DNA of 19,913 nt from Desulfobacteraceae bacterium. GTDB lineage: Bacteria; Desulfobacterota; DSM-4660; Desulfatiglandales; Desulfatiglandaceae. Shown in pieces: positions 1,898 to 19,707 of the stretch. Position numbers and translations under genes: made by a program. The DNA lies in contig CP070700.1 of assembly GCA_020349865.1 (NCBI GenBank), forward strand, positions 3,536,941 to 3,556,853, given 5' to 3'. The notes under the pieces were generated by a model, which was not told the origin of the DNA, ran no database searches, and saw nothing but the letters and a program-made list of their open reading frames with translations. Each line of letters starts with the position of its first letter. Positions within the stretch are counted from its first letter, which is position 1.

Positions 1898-2779
1898 ATG
1901 TGTAGTGCCAACAAGGTCGTCGATGGATTTCGTTTTCTGCCCCCCTCCCTAAGAGCATGGATCAGCAGGGGTATTCCTGAAGAACCATTCGGTGGGACTA
2001 TTCCGTGGACTCCCTTACAAAGGCCCATCAAAGAAACAACTTTTTCGCTCATGACGTCCGCGGGGATCAGCATGAAAAGCGATCCGCCTTTTAACGTAGA
2101 ACGGGAAAAACGTGAGCCCGCATGGGGTGACCCGAGTAGTAGGGAGATCCCCAAAACCGCTCATGAATCAGATATTGATGTCAACCATCTCCACATCAAC
2201 ACCGACTACATCAAGCAAGACATTAATGTGATGCTTCCTTTGGCGAGGTTCCGGGAGTTTGAGGAAGAAGGTGTAATCGGGAGGCTTGCACCCACGTGCT
2301 ACTCATACTACGGTTTCCAGATGGACCCAAAAGAACTTCTTGAACAGACTATGCCAAAAGTCGCTTCAAGTATGCGGGAAGAAGGAGTGGAGGCAGTCCT
2401 GCTTACACCGGCCTGACCGCTCTGCTGCCGGTCAGTTGGACTGGTCGCACGATTTTTGGAAGAAAAAGGTTTTTCAACCGTGACTCTCACCGTGAGCCCC
2501 GAATTCAACCGAGAGATTGGCATTCCGAGGGTCGCGGCAATCGAATACCCCTATGGCCGACCGGTGGGGCAGGTTAACGATAATGAGGGACAAACAAAGG
2601 TGCTCCTTGAGGCTTTATCCGTGCTGGAAAATGCTCAAGACCCCGGGCAGGTATTTCACCTCCCTTTTGATTGGCCCGAAGAACCAAAGGATACTAAATG
2701 GCATCCACCGGTGGCCTCCCCCATGATAGAATTATACTTAGACGAAATAAGAAAGGCAGGCGCCGAAGCACGAAAATAA
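1898..2779 (+). CDS. GrdB-like selenoprotein (glycine/sarcosine/betaine/D-proline reductase B family) with in-frame UGA
   Basis: One open frame runs from ATG 1898 to the TAA ending at 2779, broken only by TGA at 2414-2416. Both halves belong to the same family (PF07355-type): the first has TPLQRPIKET, a DPPFN segment, WGDPS.REIP and EGVIGRLAP; the second has VGLVARFLEEKGF and the conserved VAAIEYPYGRPVGQ end. The TGA falls exactly where relatives carry a redox Cys or Sec, giving LLTPA-U173-P-L-C176-C177, a U-x-x-C motif. Read through, the protein has 293 residues. A strong AGGAGG (1884-1889), 8 nt before the ATG, fixes the start. Family members catalyse or assist reductive cleavage chemistry through the selenol; this short form lacks recognisable GrdA/GrdC partners nearby, so the substrate is unknown. 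The alternative is a simple nonsense mutation, less likely because conservation continues across the codon. Automatic annotation would split it into two ORFs (1898-2416 and about 2456-2779). Confidence 0.85.
2414..2444 (+). promoter_or_regulatory. Sec UGA codon and SECIS-like hairpin
   Basis: Downstream of the UGA (2414-2416) lies a 6-bp stem, CCGGTC (2428-2433) with GACTGG (2439-2444), including one G-U pair, closing a 5-nt loop AGTTG with G in second position. The loop begins 17 nt after the UGA. Bacterial SECIS elements, bound by SelB, have a small apical loop with a G among the first two bases at roughly 16-37 nt from the UGA, so this fits. The fold was drawn by hand. Confidence 0.6.
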
Positions 2780-3178: not shown

Positions 3179-4081
3179 ATGGCGATAGAATTTTACGACG
3201 TTTTGATTTTGGGAACCGGTCCTGCTGGGCTACAGGCAGCTATTCACGCTGCCCGCAAAAAAGTTGCCGTACTCGTTTTAGGGAGACAGCATAAAAGCAG
3301 TGCATACCGCGCCCATATCGAGAATTACTGCTGCATCAGTGGGATCGCCGGCGAGGCACTATTGAATGAGGGTAGAACGCAAGCCGAAAAATCCGGGGCG
3401 CGATTTCTAAGTGAGGACGTGGTTGACCTAACTCAAAACGAGGGATTGTTTGTAGTCCGTTCAGAGAACGGCACAATATTCAATACCAAGTCCCTGATTC
3501 TCGCCATGGGTATATCGCGCAAAAAACTTAACGTGCCGGGAGAGAAAGAACTTTTGGGCCGTGGGGTAAGCTACTGTGTTGAATGTGACGCTAACTTTTA
3601 CAAAGGTGAGCCTGTAGCCGTAACCGGGTGCGAGAGTGCCGCAGTTGCTGGCGCTCTGACCTTGCTCTTTTACGCAAGTGAGGTTCATCTGGTGTGTGAA
3701 AAACTTGAGGTGTCTGAACCTATGGCTCAACAATTAAAAGATGCTTCTATCCATTTTCATGAAGGCAGAAAAATCAAAGAGATCACAGGCGAGTCCGGTG
3801 TTGACAGTGTCCTCCTCGATGACGGAACTCGCCTTGATGTAACCGGAATCTTCATTGAACTGGGGGCAAAGGGTGCCATCGAATTGGCCACGAAAGTGGG
3901 TGTCACCCTTGACAGCGAGTCAATGCAGTTTATCGTCACCAATAAGAAGCAGGAGACGAACATTCCTGGTGTTTATGCTGCCGGGGACATTTGCGGGCCA
4001 CCGTGGCAGATGGCCAAAGCTGTGGGAGAAGGCTGCGTGGCAGGGCTGGAAGCAGCGGCTTATGCAAAAAAGTCTAAGTAA
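3179..4081 (+). CDS. Thioredoxin-reductase-like FAD disulfide oxidoreductase
   Basis: A 300-residue protein, the length of low-Mr thioredoxin reductases. The FAD-binding GTGPAG lies at residues 12-17, the redox pair C133-V-E-C136-D at the usual place, and the second FAD motif GVYAAGDICG near the C-terminus. The dinucleotide domain is atypical: the glycine motif is VTGCESAAVAG in place of the usual GGGDSA, and the HRR that grips the NADPH 2'-phosphate is replaced by VCEK. NADPH use is therefore doubtful; NADH, ferredoxin or another donor is possible. AAGGAG (3164-3169) sits 9 nt before the ATG. It lies 399 bp after the GrdB-like selenoprotein on the same strand. In glycine reductase operons trxB/trxA feed electrons to the selenoproteins, so this enzyme may reduce that protein; this is inference. 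A Cys pair at 51-52 replaces the Pro-Gly usual near that position. Confidence 0.85.
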   Translation: MAIEFYDVLILGTGPAGLQAAIHAARKKVAVLVLGRQHKSSAYRAHIENYCCISGIAGEALLNEGRTQAEKSGARFLSEDVVDLTQNEGLFVVRSENGTIFNTKSLILAMGISRKKLNVPGEKELLGRGVSYCVECDANFYKGEPVAVTGCESAAVAGALTLLFYASEVHLVCEKLEVSEPMAQQLKDASIHFHEGRKIKEITGESGVDSVLLDDGTRLDVTGIFIELGAKGAIELATKVGVTLDSESMQFIVTNKKQETNIPGVYAAGDICGPPWQMAKAVGEGCVAGLEAAAYAKKSK

Positions 4082-15240: not shown

Positions 15241-16425
15241 ATGAAGCCGATTGAAATTTCAAAGGACATTTACTGGTTAGGGGTAATTGACTGGAACATA
15301 AGGGATTTTCATGGGTACTCTACCTATGAGGGGTCTACTTATAATGCTTTCCTGATCATGGATGAAAAGATCGCGCTCATTGACACGGTGAAGAAGGGTT
15401 TTGAAGACGAACTGATCGAGGGCATCACTCATCTGGTCGATCCCAAGAAAATCGATTATGTGATCAGCAACCACACGGAAATGGATCATTCGGGAGGACT
15501 CCCCAGGATTATGCACAGGATTGGTGAGGATAAACCCCTTTATTGCTCCAAGATAGGGCACAAAAACCTATCACGGCATTTCCCCCAGCAATGGAACTAC
15601 CAACCGGTTGAAACTGGAGGGGAATTGAGCCTGGGGAAGCGAAACCTCACCTTTGTGGAAACCAGGATGCTTCACTGGCCAGACAGCATGTTCACCTATT
15701 TAAAGGAGGATAAGATCCTCTTTTCCAGTGATGGTTTCGGACAGCATTACGCAGGCATTGAAAGGTTTGATGACGAAATTGGAGAGGCCATCATGCCTCA
15801 CGCCAGGAAGTACTTTGCCAACATCCTGCTCCTTTACGCCCCTTTGGTACTCAAACTGGTGGATAAGGTGAACGAAATGGGGCTGGCCATTGATATGATC
15901 TGTCCTGACCACGGGATTATCTGGAGAAAAGACCCCGCAAAGATCATAAGCAGTTATGTGGAATGGAGCCTCCAGAAGCCCAAGCGAAAAGCTCTGGTCA
16001 TTTACGATACCATTTGGCACAGCACCCAAGTGATGGCTGAGGCCATTGTGGCATCCCTCGGCGAGGAAGGGGTGAATGCCCGGCCCATGCACCTAAGGAC
16101 CTACCACCGAAGCGATATTATGACTGAAGTGCTTGACGCAGGAGCTGTCATTGTCGGCTCACCCACTTTAAACAATGGTCTGTTCCCCACAGTGACCGAT
16201 TTTCTTGCTTATATGAAGGGCTTAAAGCCCAATAACAAGGTGGCAGCCGCCTTCGGCTCCTATGGCTGGAGTGGGGAAGCGGTCAAACTGATAAATCGCG
16301 AATTTGAACAGATGAAATTTGATGTAATAGATCCCGGTATCAGAATCAGTTATGTGCCTGATAATCAGGGCTTGAAGGCCTGTTATGAGCTCGGTAAAAA
16401 GATCGCCAAGGCACTTCCTGGTTGA
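15241..16425 (+). CDS. fprA: A-type flavodiiron protein (oxygen/nitric oxide reductase)
   Basis: A 394-residue flavodiiron protein. The N-terminal beta-lactamase-like half carries the diiron ligands: H78-x-E80-x-D82-H83 (SNHTEMDHSGG), a His in MLHWPDS, an Asp in SSDGFGQHY and a His in CPDHG. The C-terminal half (about 255-394) is a flavodoxin domain with the FMN loop YDTIWHST and the SPTLNNG and GSYGWSG segments. It reduces O2 to water or NO to N2O in the cytoplasm, normally taking electrons from rubredoxin, which is not encoded nearby. It is full length with no extra NADH or rubredoxin domain. AGGAGG (15223-15228) lies 12 nt upstream of the ATG, slightly long. larE follows after 68 bp, so co-transcription is possible. 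A Rex/FNR-like palindrome lies in its promoter region. Confidence 0.93.
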   Translation: MKPIEISKDIYWLGVIDWNIRDFHGYSTYEGSTYNAFLIMDEKIALIDTVKKGFEDELIEGITHLVDPKKIDYVISNHTEMDHSGGLPRIMHRIGEDKPLYCSKIGHKNLSRHFPQQWNYQPVETGGELSLGKRNLTFVETRMLHWPDSMFTYLKEDKILFSSDGFGQHYAGIERFDDEIGEAIMPHARKYFANILLLYAPLVLKLVDKVNEMGLAIDMICPDHGIIWRKDPAKIISSYVEWSLQKPKRKALVIYDTIWHSTQVMAEAIVASLGEEGVNARPMHLRTYHRSDIMTEVLDAGAVIVGSPTLNNGLFPTVTDFLAYMKGLKPNNKVAAAFGSYGWSGEAVKLINREFEQMKFDVIDPGIRISYVPDNQGLKACYELGKKIAKALPG

Positions 16426-16493: not shown

Positions 16494-17336
16494 ATGAATG
16501 AAGACATCGCGAAATCGAAAAGGGAAGGCCTGGTCCGTCTGTTAAAGGACATGGATTCCCTCCTGGTGGCGTTTTCAGGCGGGGTTGACAGCACATTTCT
16601 TTTGGCACTTGCCCACGAAACCATGGGGAAAAAAGTAGTGGCTGTCACGGCAAGCTCTGTCATCCATCCTATCCGGGAAACCGAAAGCGCCCGAGAATTT
16701 GCCCGGGAAAAGGAAATTGGTCATATCATTATTCACCCAAACGAGCTGAGCCTTACTGACTTTACTTCAAATACCTCCGAACGCTGCTACTACTGCAAAC
16801 GAAATCTATTTGAGCTTCTCCTTCAAATTGCAAGGGATAAGGGCATCAAACAGGTGGCCCACGGCGCCAACATGGACGACCTGAGGGACTATCGCCCTGG
16901 ATTTAGGGCAGCCGGGGAGATGGGAGTCATGGCTCCGCTTGTGGATGTTCAATTGGGCAAAGAAGAGATACGTTTCCTCTCAAAAGATATGGGCTTAATA
17001 ACATGGGATAAGCCAGCTATGGCCTGCCTTGCAAGCAGGGTCCCTTACGGAAGTCCGATTACCGAAAAGAAGCTCAAGATGATCGAAGATGCCGAAACAT
17101 TTCTTATTGACCGGGGTTTTAAGAAAGTGAGGGTCCGCCATAACGGGTCTACGGCCAGGATTGAGGTGGAAAGGTCTGGACACAAAAAGATTATTGATGA
17201 AGGACTCGCCTATGCGGTTGTAGCTGAATTTCGCGGGATCGGTTTTAACCATATTACGCTGGATCTGGAAGGATATATTCCCGGGAGCCTTAATCGAGAT
17301 CTGGGGAATAAGAAAAAGAAGGAGTCAGCTGAATGA
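16494..17336 (+). CDS. larE: LarE-type ATP-dependent sacrificial sulfur transferase
   Basis: A 280-residue PP-loop protein. SGGVDS at residues 28-33 binds and activates ATP; the RCYYCK motif (C98, C101) and DDLRDYRPG are typical of LarE; C178 in MACLASRVPYG corresponds to the sulfur-donating Cys176 of Lactobacillus LarE. LarE adenylates and sulfurates the pyridinium cofactor precursor of lactate racemase, giving up a Cys sulfur or using a cluster-bound one. No larA, larB or larC is in the window. Instead the stop overlaps the start of a YcaO gene (ATGA, 17333-17336), which indicates translational coupling and a shared task, possibly sulfur delivery for a thioamide or similar. The ATG is preceded by GAGGTGA at long spacing; an in-frame TGA at 16476-16478 excludes an earlier start. 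Confidence 0.88.
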   Translation: MNEDIAKSKREGLVRLLKDMDSLLVAFSGGVDSTFLLALAHETMGKKVVAVTASSVIHPIRETESAREFAREKEIGHIIIHPNELSLTDFTSNTSERCYYCKRNLFELLLQIARDKGIKQVAHGANMDDLRDYRPGFRAAGEMGVMAPLVDVQLGKEEIRFLSKDMGLITWDKPAMACLASRVPYGSPITEKKLKMIEDAETFLIDRGFKKVRVRHNGSTARIEVERSGHKKIIDEGLAYAVVAEFRGIGFNHITLDLEGYIPGSLNRDLGNKKKKESAE

Positions 17337-19060
17337 GCCATAGAATTATTCTAAATGATGCATACAAGGGCTACACCCTGGATCAGGATAAGATCGTTTC
17401 ACCAGAGAAGACGATCCAGCGGTTCAGGGAAAAGCTCAAGCAAATCGATATGAATATCCTGGAGCAGACAATAAGAATTGATAAGGGCCGCCTCGATATC
17501 CCGGTATATTTCAGTATCTGCGGCCGTGAGGCCGAAGAGGTCATTGGAACAAAAAAGCAAATGGGAAAGGGGGGAACACCCAACCAAGCAGAAGCCAGTG
17601 CCGTAATGGAGTTGGCAGAGAGATTCAGTTTCTTCAGTTTCTGGAAGAATCCAAAGAACTTCTCAGTTGCAGAGTACAGAAACGTAAGGGGTCCCGCCCT
17701 CCCCTTTAAGAATGTTGCCCAGTCCGTTCATGACGACTCTGAAGATCTTGACCTTGTGAAGGAGGTCTTTTCAAGACTTCCGCTAAAATGGACCTGGGGC
17801 TACAACTTGACTAAGGGTGAGGAAGTGCTCATACCTTTTGACTGGTTTTTTACCATAAATGAGTTCAACGGTCCCTCTGCCGGAAACTGCACGGAAGAAG
17901 CAATCCTCCAGGGAATATGTGAGGTGGTGGAAAGGCATGTCTCGTCAATCATCAGCCGAAATAAGTTAAAGGCCCCTTCAATTGATCTTGGTTCGGTTGA
18001 TGATCCGCTCGTTATGGAGTTGATTCACAAATACCAAAAAGCGGGGATCAAACTGTATGCTTCTGATTTTTCGCTTGATACCGGAATCCCCTCTGTCGGT
18101 GCCCTTGCCTACGATCCTTCTACCTTTCCTCACAGGAGCGAAATCGTCTGGACAGCCGGAACAACCCCCAACCCGCAAAAGGCCCTGAGCCGGGCTTTGA
18201 CGGAAGTCGCCCAGCTGGCCGGTGATTTTGATACCAACTCAAACTATGTGGCAAGCGGTCTTCCCAAATTCAAAGACCTGACTGAGGCCGATTTTATCAT
18301 GCATCCGGGAAATGATGTCCTCATTTCCAGCCTGCCGGATCTTTCTAATGACAACATCAAGGTAGAGGTTAATAACTGTGTCGATGCCCTTTCGAAAATA
18401 CACATGGAAGTGATCCTTATTAATGTGACCCATCCCAAATTGGGTATTCCGGCCTTCTACACCATCATTCCCGGAGCCCATTTCAGGGAACGGTCAGCGG
18501 GTACGAGCGTCGGGATGTTTTCGGCCAAGTTGATTGCCGAAAGCGGAGATCATGAATGGGCCGTCAAGGAACTTAAAAAGATAGATCAACTCCTGCCAGG
18601 AAAATACTACATCAAATTCTTCTTGGGAGTATCCCACATCTCAATCAATGAGCCATTGAAGGCCTTAAGATATTTGGAGGAAGCACTAAACCTTGACCCC
18701 AAAGAGCAGGACATCCCGAGCATCTATTCATACATGGGAGTCTCCTTGAAAGAGCTTGAACGTTACGGCGAAGCCATTGAGACGCTTAAAAAAGCAGAAG
18801 AATATGACAGTGAAAGAACAGACGTCTATAACCTCATGGGCTTCTGTTATTTCAAGCTCAAGGACCACCAGAAGGCCATTGAATGCTTTAAAAATGTCCT
18901 ACAACTGGATCCCGGTTCCGCCATTGACTATGCCAATATCGCTTCCAACTACCGGGATATGGGTGACAGGGATAAGGCCCTTCAGTATTACAAGTTTGCA
19001 CTAGAACTTGACCCAACCATTGATTTCGCCAGAGACAACCTGCAGATGCTGGAACAATGA
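17333..19060 (+). CDS. YcaO-domain protein with C-terminal TPR repeats
   Basis: A 575-residue protein. Residues about 60-390 form a YcaO domain: GKGGTPNQAEASAVMELAER (E93, E96, R97) and N185-C-T-E-E-A...E197-V-V-E200-R201 match the ATP/Mg-binding Glu and Asn/Arg pattern of the family, and HFRERSAG supplies a further Arg. YcaO enzymes use ATP to activate backbone amides, making azolines, amidines or thioamides. Residues about 415-575 are TPR repeats (EALNLDPKEQ, AIETLKKAEEYD, AIECFKNVLQLDPGS, ALQYYKFALELDP), a protein-binding platform. This resembles the long, housekeeping E. coli-like YcaO rather than peptide natural-product cyclases, and no precursor peptide or TfuA was found. It overlaps larE by 4 nt. 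Its target is unknown; a protein or ribosomal target is conceivable. Confidence 0.88.
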   Translation: MSHRIILNDAYKGYTLDQDKIVSPEKTIQRFREKLKQIDMNILEQTIRIDKGRLDIPVYFSICGREAEEVIGTKKQMGKGGTPNQAEASAVMELAERFSFFSFWKNPKNFSVAEYRNVRGPALPFKNVAQSVHDDSEDLDLVKEVFSRLPLKWTWGYNLTKGEEVLIPFDWFFTINEFNGPSAGNCTEEAILQGICEVVERHVSSIISRNKLKAPSIDLGSVDDPLVMELIHKYQKAGIKLYASDFSLDTGIPSVGALAYDPSTFPHRSEIVWTAGTTPNPQKALSRALTEVAQLAGDFDTNSNYVASGLPKFKDLTEADFIMHPGNDVLISSLPDLSNDNIKVEVNNCVDALSKIHMEVILINVTHPKLGIPAFYTIIPGAHFRERSAGTSVGMFSAKLIAESGDHEWAVKELKKIDQLLPGKYYIKFFLGVSHISINEPLKALRYLEEALNLDPKEQDIPSIYSYMGVSLKELERYGEAIETLKKAEEYDSERTDVYNLMGFCYFKLKDHQKAIECFKNVLQLDPGSAIDYANIASNYRDMGDRDKALQYYKFALELDPTIDFARDNLQMLEQ

Positions 19061-19410: not shown

Positions 19411-19707
19411 GTGAATAAGAGCGAAGTTCTTGAAAAGCTCACATTTTTCCGGGATGAGCAGAAAACATATTCCGTAAAGGGTCTTTATCTTTTTGGTTCT
19501 TACGCACGAGAAGAGGCGAGAGAGGAAAGCGACCTGGATATTCTTGTTGAGTTTGAGCCGGATGCACCGATCGGTTTATTCGAGTTCGCCAGACTTCGGC
19601 GTAGGCTTAGCGAGCTGGTGGGCAGAGAGGTGGATCTGGTCACTCGCGATGCGATACGCCCGGAGATGAGGGATGAGATATTGCGGGAGGCTGTGCATGC
19701 CGCTTAG
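19411..19707 (+). CDS. mntA: MntA-type minimal nucleotidyltransferase antitoxin
   Basis: A 98-residue minimal nucleotidyltransferase. The active-site motif G-S-x10-D-x-D is complete (GSYAREEAREESDLDILVEFE, residues about 30-50), and the C-terminus VGREVDLVTRDAIRPEMRDEIL is typical. MntA antitoxins neutralise the HEPN ribonuclease HepT by attaching AMP to a Tyr next to its active site. Start GTG with AGGAGG (19399-19404) 6 nt upstream. It overlaps the downstream HEPN gene by 11 nt, the usual toxin-antitoxin arrangement. All catalytic residues are present, so this half appears functional. Confidence 0.88.
   Translation: MNKSEVLEKLTFFRDEQKTYSVKGLYLFGSYAREEAREESDLDILVEFEPDAPIGLFEFARLRRRLSELVGREVDLVTRDAIRPEMRDEILREAVHAA

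Follow-up and report, generated by a model that had tools for sequence, protein, structure and literature searches.

The forward-strand gene at positions 1898–2779 of the window, by which we mean the whole 19,913-nucleotide stretch of DNA analysed here, very probably encodes a selenoprotein in which an in-frame UGA is read as selenocysteine (Sec), and the comparative sequence evidence for this reading is strong. It forms a single frame from the ATG at 1898 to the TAA at 2777–2779 and would yield a complete product of 293 amino acids with Sec at position 173, the codon of the TGA at 2414–2416. With high confidence, we see one joint explanation for the observations described below: a single gene, the UGA of which is decoded as Sec via a SECIS element and SelB, and which specifies an oxidoreductase of the PrdB branch without a pyruvoyl subunit, its chemistry being predicted to reside in Sec173 and Cys176.

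Sec-containing PrdB-type proteins with a UxxC motif and pfam07355 membership have been in print since 2005, and the gene in the window is a member of a partnerless subfamily within this known Sec family. As far as the consulted portions of the two reports go, the Sargasso Sea metagenome contained 42 Sec-encoding PrdB genes with a UXXC motif (PMC1088965), and the Global Ocean Sampling data contained 235 Sec and 110 Cys forms assigned to pfam07355 (PMC2398784). This marine ‘Proline reductase PrdB’ family resembles the window gene in its pfam07355 membership, its UxxC motif and its occurrence in Sec and Cys forms; unlike our description, these portions keep the proline-reductase name and mention no test for PrdA (PMC1088965, PMC2398784). 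Excerpts of two further papers list a proline reductase among the proteins of Geobacter uraniumreducens (PMC1794560) and include three Desulfosarcina genomes in a table of deep-Sep (PMC12013277). A PrdB-like selenoprotein without PrdA was not found among the listed titles and abstract beginnings of a literature that excludes most subscription papers and preprints.

Gene structure

The initial annotation described two open reading frames (ORFs) in the same frame, split by the TGA at 2414–2416 alone, and this TGA is indeed the sole stop between the ATG and the terminal TAA. The motif around it reads U173-P-L-C176-C177, and the codon of Cys176, the putative resolving cysteine of the UxxC motif, lies at 2423–2425. 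A ribosome-binding site, AGGAGG at 1884–1889, can be read from the sequence 8 nt ahead of the ATG. The gene starts 102 nt after a gene for an MFS transporter, and the gap between them may hold a promoter of its own, TTGACA-17-TACACT at 1809–1837 on the forward strand (10 of 12 consensus matches; weak evidence, from a scan that found three sites in the window against 1.9 expected by chance).

We took 17 ORFs as the main genes of the window, out of 46 listed of at least 80 amino acids. Eight of the 17 terminate in TGA, beyond which the frame stays open for 7, 120, 1, 1, 5, 15, 5 and 0 codons, the 120 belonging to the selenoprotein gene. An alternative genetic code was set aside, as this gene is the only one of the 17 to stay open far past its TGA. 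A random open stretch of 120 codons has a probability of about 0.005 at the GC content of the window; the real evidence for read-through, rather than this value, is the homology of the second half, which aligns through codon 173 in a 39-row protein alignment (the window, 27 loci and 11 of the 120 homologues listed from a database search). The annotated continuation of family sequence across the TGA is thereby borne out.

Conservation of codon 173

All 36 close orthologues obtained in two genome scans contain one TGA within the match. The first scan covered 291 genomes of the order to which genome G002 belongs; a match of any kind was obtained in 90 of these, and a close orthologue, at 54–80% identity, in 22. 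The second, across 395 genomes of the phylum, returned 15 with a match at an E-value no higher than 1e-60; 14 of the 15 were new, each with one TGA. In every orthologue that could be placed (35 of 35; 22 of 22 in the first scan and 13 of 14 in the second), this TGA falls at the same motif, the remaining one, L080, having a TGA that the motif filter could not place. One genome (G017) has two TAA codons at the end of the match besides the single TGA. A scan of genome contigs yielded three loci, two of them from the genomes G001 and G002, with TGA at the position of codon 173 in all three; one of these loci, L003, is a fragment with an additional frame break. Of the named loci, the three nearest come from a Desulfosarcina, a Desulfobacterales bacterium and a deltaproteobacterium.

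In protein databases, phmmer found 1929 homologues. Among the best 120 of these, which were listed, 104 stop exactly at the codon position, the type of stop being invisible in protein records. Gene callers treat UGA as the end of a gene, so that many database copies consist of the front part alone, and the suspicion that this gene is likely to be misannotated as fragments is supported. The remaining 16 read past the codon: 14 carry Cys, P0002 has Arg and P0008 has Trp. The latter two are full-length, and the Trp could stem from a gene call with TGA read as Trp. Taken together with the TGA in all placed orthologues, this column bears out the annotated claim that relatives hold Sec or Cys here, with Arg and Trp as the exceptions among the listed homologues that read on.

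The part of the gene beyond the codon is under the same constraint as the part before it, as judged by equal mean pN/pS values on the two sides (0.263 upstream and 0.265 downstream of it, averaged over the 21 pairs formed with the window; L024 and L026–L033, the latter being distant paralogues, were not included). These values bear on a first alternative, according to which a Cys-type gene has become a pseudogene, its TGA being due to a nonsense mutation or a sequencing error. The Arg and Trp in P0002 and P0008 speak in its favour, in that other residues appear to be allowed at this codon and a single base change can separate the codon of either from TGA. A pseudogene is nevertheless hard to reconcile with the single TGA found in every one of the 36 orthologues, with equal constraint on either side of it and with the conserved hairpin that follows it, and we give this alternative almost no credence.

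A second alternative is that the UGA acts as a regulated stop, such that the 172-residue and the Sec-containing products both matter, in a ratio that depends on selenium. Inefficient decoding of Sec is common, and the 172-residue N-terminal half is well conserved, as this alternative would have it. Against it, the UxxC motif at and after the codon is conserved as well, and 14 Cys homologues do without such a stop. We therefore regard a regulated stop as improbable and read the UGA as a Sec codon within one gene.

A SECIS-like hairpin

According to the consulted parts of two publications, bacterial SECIS elements are stem-loops after the UGA with a small apical loop that bears a G (PMC1088965, PMC9312934). 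A hairpin of this kind, GCCGGUC-AGUUG-GACUGGU, lies at 2427–2445 on the forward strand, right after the UGA; it emerged from folding, from a consensus fold of 21 sequences and from a comparison of 36 genes with a synonymous-codon null. Most relatives have a loop of 3 nt, which starts at the G equivalent to position 2435.

For the consensus fold, we aligned 21 of the 31 sequences placed at that time, leaving out 10 on the minus strand. In it, 93.3% of the cells are paired, against 16–48% in slid versions, and its covariation score was reached by none of 500 shuffles. Just two pairs are changed on both sides, a count attained by 42 of 500 shuffles, and the variety of pair types is that of shuffles (equalled by 271 of 500). 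As coding constraint can mimic a stem, we also applied a null in which synonymous codons were drawn at their pooled usage in 36 genes (L080 was lost to the motif filter). On average, 7.69 of 8 pairs are kept in these genes, whereas the null retains 5.43, and the folding energy is better than the null by more than one standard deviation (z below -1) in 28 of the 36, the locus L014 lying at +0.60. The first base of the loop is G in 36 of 36, the Ser codon is TCC in 34 and the Gly codon is GGA in 32; the locus L025 has six pairs, equalled by 51% of its synonymous shuffles.

Within the family, these comparisons are strong evidence for a conserved hairpin of the bacterial SECIS type after the UGA. 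The copy in the window is a slightly weakened one, as seen from its pairing against the strong family mean: an A replaces the closing C, leaving 7 of 8 pairs, which 14.5% of synonymous shuffles equal. Its energy is unremarkable against dinucleotide shuffles (z = -1.25).

Selenocysteine machinery in relatives

The machinery for Sec incorporation is widespread in related genomes. SelB scores above its cut-off in three of three relatives, SelD was found in eight of eight, with a TGA inside each best match, and SelA lies above its cut-off in the same number (8/8). A wider test of 37 genomes with a close copy of the gene detected SelA above its cut-off in 36, the remaining one having a piece of SelA at a contig edge. 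SelA is likewise found in 38 of 40 listed genomes without a close copy (20 without any match in the first scan and 20 without a close match in the phylum scan); its presence is therefore consistent with Sec decoding, and we dropped it as a discriminating test because it is nearly universal among the genomes compared.

A tRNA-Sec was detected above the Rfam cut-off in one of three relatives and confirmed by ARAGORN, and DNA similarity to selC was found in six of eight relatives' genomes, all six sequences being called tRNA-Sec. Neither Rfam, which scored 150 candidates per genome out of totals of 591 and 510, nor DNA similarity to the selC of a relative located this gene in G002 and G003, two genomes in which SelA, SelB and a TGA-containing SelD are present. 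The copy of the selenoprotein gene in G002 sits on a contig of 5.3 Mb.

Relationship to PrdB and GrdB

The predicted protein matches PF07355 (GRDB) with 39.1 bits (E = 7e-10), above the curated cut-off of 22, over positions 215–345 of the 347 in the profile. Its best NCBIfam model is that of PrdB (TIGR04483), at 157.5 bits and below the cut-off of 300; for comparison, a plasmid-borne PrdB encoded near PrdA reaches 424.7 bits. The GrdB model (TIGR01917) gives 38.6 bits, far from its cut-off of 602. The label ‘GrdB-like’ in the initial annotation is a loose one: the protein belongs to PF07355 but is closer to PrdB than to GrdB.

The protein aligns with PrdB (TIGR04483, PF07355) over 224 of its 293 residues, with about 33% identity in the plasmid matches listed, and both have a UxxC-type motif at the same place and a short form restricted to the later section of the PF07355 profile. 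Unlike PrdB, the window protein attains half of the PrdB cut-off, extends further at either end (293 amino acids in total, against 241) and belongs to a subfamily without a conserved operon. With GrdB it shares PF07355 and, judging from the consulted part of a 2026 review, the position of Sec within a UxxC motif (PMC13188914), whereas the GrdB model is much longer, with 431 positions.

Further differences concern the partner subunits, for which we searched the genomes of 23 relatives, many of them drafts. PrdA was found above its cut-off in none, with one match of 22 bits in G002, and the 14 control genomes of this search gave no match either. As a positive control in hmmscan, the PrdA of Terrisporobacter, encoded near the PrdB that scores 425 bits, attains 976 bits with the PrdA model and 80 bits with PF09338. 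GrdB works together with GrdA and a PF09338 subunit. This pyruvoyl family (PrdA/GrdE) was found in one of the 23 genomes, G002, and GrdA in two. Given this scarcity of the PrdA/GrdE family and of GrdA in the 23 relatives, the sequence data make it very unlikely that the subfamily belongs to a proline or glycine reductase.

The gene could still encode the PrdB of a true D-proline reductase, or the B subunit of a glycine reductase, with its partners elsewhere in the genome. PrdB being the best NCBIfam model and the match to PF07355 are in line with this, as is the name PrdB that JGI gives to many homologues among the matches listed. However, the score of 157 bits falls well short of the cut-off of 300 and of the 425 bits of a PrdB encoded close to PrdA, and PrdA above cut-off and PF09338 occur in 0 and 1 of the 23 relatives. 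This possibility thus appears very improbable to us, and we place the protein in a partnerless subfamily of the PrdB branch. The view that it is a short stand-alone protein is supported as far as the relatives go, with its PrdA, GrdA and GrdE partners nearly absent from the relatives' genomes and its neighbours unconserved across lineages.

Genomic context

Clustering of the ORFs around 20 orthologues and the window gave no cluster with more than five loci, barring the two halves of the gene itself and one cluster of seven loci that we read as its antisense shadow. Likewise, when three genes on each side were compared in 36 neighbourhoods including that of the window (L094 was unplaced), no neighbour family occurred in more than six loci. 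The two families reaching six do so in the same six loci, which probably represent one lineage, and are divergent from the selenoprotein gene; we take them to be holB-like and tmk-like. An operon or partner genes thus offered nothing usable as a clue to function, with no neighbour conserved across lineages. A mobile-element origin was also discarded: there were no matches in 50,697 phage records, and the 24 plasmid records matched are all distant, at less than 60% identity (33–35% in the 20 listed), their named features being prdB.

Downstream of the selenoprotein gene in the window, at a distance of 399 nt, lies a thioredoxin-reductase-like gene (3179–4081, forward strand) with a CVEC motif, which scores 228 bits with TIGR01292, below the cut-off of 343, and is a possible route for electron donation. 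The space between these two genes contains a palindrome, CCCCCTTTAATAAAGGGGG, at 2885–2903 and a copy with two mismatches at 2854–2872, where none would be expected by chance; the copy falls inside a terminator-like site.

Further along the window, the region 16494–19060 (forward strand) encodes a LarE-like sulfur transferase that scores 308 bits (cut-off 150) and, overlapping its end by 4 bases, a YcaO-domain protein with a TPR-like C-terminal part; the two look like a thioamide- or thiolation-type pair. Just upstream of it is a flavodiiron-like gene (15241–16425), the best model for which is flavorubredoxin, below cut-off. The ORF at 19411–19707 (forward strand) presumably encodes a small nucleotidyltransferase-like protein, named from its GSYAREEAREESDLDILV motif, and its end is overlapped by a second ORF (19673 onward); together, they resemble an MNT/HEPN toxin–antitoxin pair.

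Structural model and proposed mechanism

An AlphaFold model of the protein, with Cys in place of Sec, has a pLDDT of 94.9. In it, residue 173 is located between a strand (166–170) and a helix (176–189), which would be a usual place for a reactive chalcogen, and Cys176 is invariant in all 39 rows of the protein alignment. Comparison of this high-confidence model with the PDB gave no clear fold match, and fold comparison was accordingly abandoned as a guide to function; sequence searches for solved relatives returned nothing convincing (best E-values of 1.5 with the single protein and 0.38 with the profile).

By established biology, SelB would bind the hairpin and deliver Sec-tRNA to the UGA, giving rise to a selenoprotein of 293 residues within the PrdB branch of PF07355. 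We propose that this product is a soluble oxidoreductase that acts without the PrdA/GrdE pyruvoyl subunit. The selenolate of Sec173 would attack the substrate, Cys176 would resolve the intermediate by forming a Se–S bond, and a thioredoxin-type donor would reduce this bond again. By analogy with PrdB and GrdB, our guess for the substrate is a small molecule with an activated C–X bond.

Evolution of the subfamily

A rapidly built tree of 45 proteins served to trace the residue at codon 173; two plasmid PrdBs formed its outgroup, and support was poor for 15 of its 42 inner branches. Left out of it were the partial P0022 and three rows (L024, L029 and L030) in which further stops occur close to the match end. 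The minimum number of changes on this tree is three for the Cys label, four for Sec against all others, and two when Sec and Cys rows alone are counted. From these counts, Sec and Cys seem to have been exchanged more than once. In each of four genomes (G002, G069, G213 and G154), the protein has four or five distinct matches; most of these contain an in-frame TGA, and a few are short or interrupted by other stops. Such multiple matches possibly reflect an expansion of Sec-containing paralogues.

Our more far-reaching proposal, which we put forward tentatively and at slightly less than even chances, is that these PrdB-like proteins of about 290 residues form a self-sufficient subfamily that has left the pyruvoyl-dependent two-subunit reductases and has a substrate site of its own. 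In sulfate-reducer-like bacteria, it would reduce a small molecule and would often share its cell with several Sec-containing paralogues that are more distant.

For the family as a whole, the analysis has a practical side. In 104 of the best 120 homologues, the entry is a stub, in most cases of some 172 amino acids, that breaks off ahead of the UxxC motif, while the full-length forms bear the name of an enzyme the partner of which, PrdA, is not found above cut-off in 23 relatives' genomes. Read correctly, the gene becomes a defined and cloneable target: a predicted oxidoreductase with a UGA codon that is kept in 36 orthologues and with close relatives that carry Cys.
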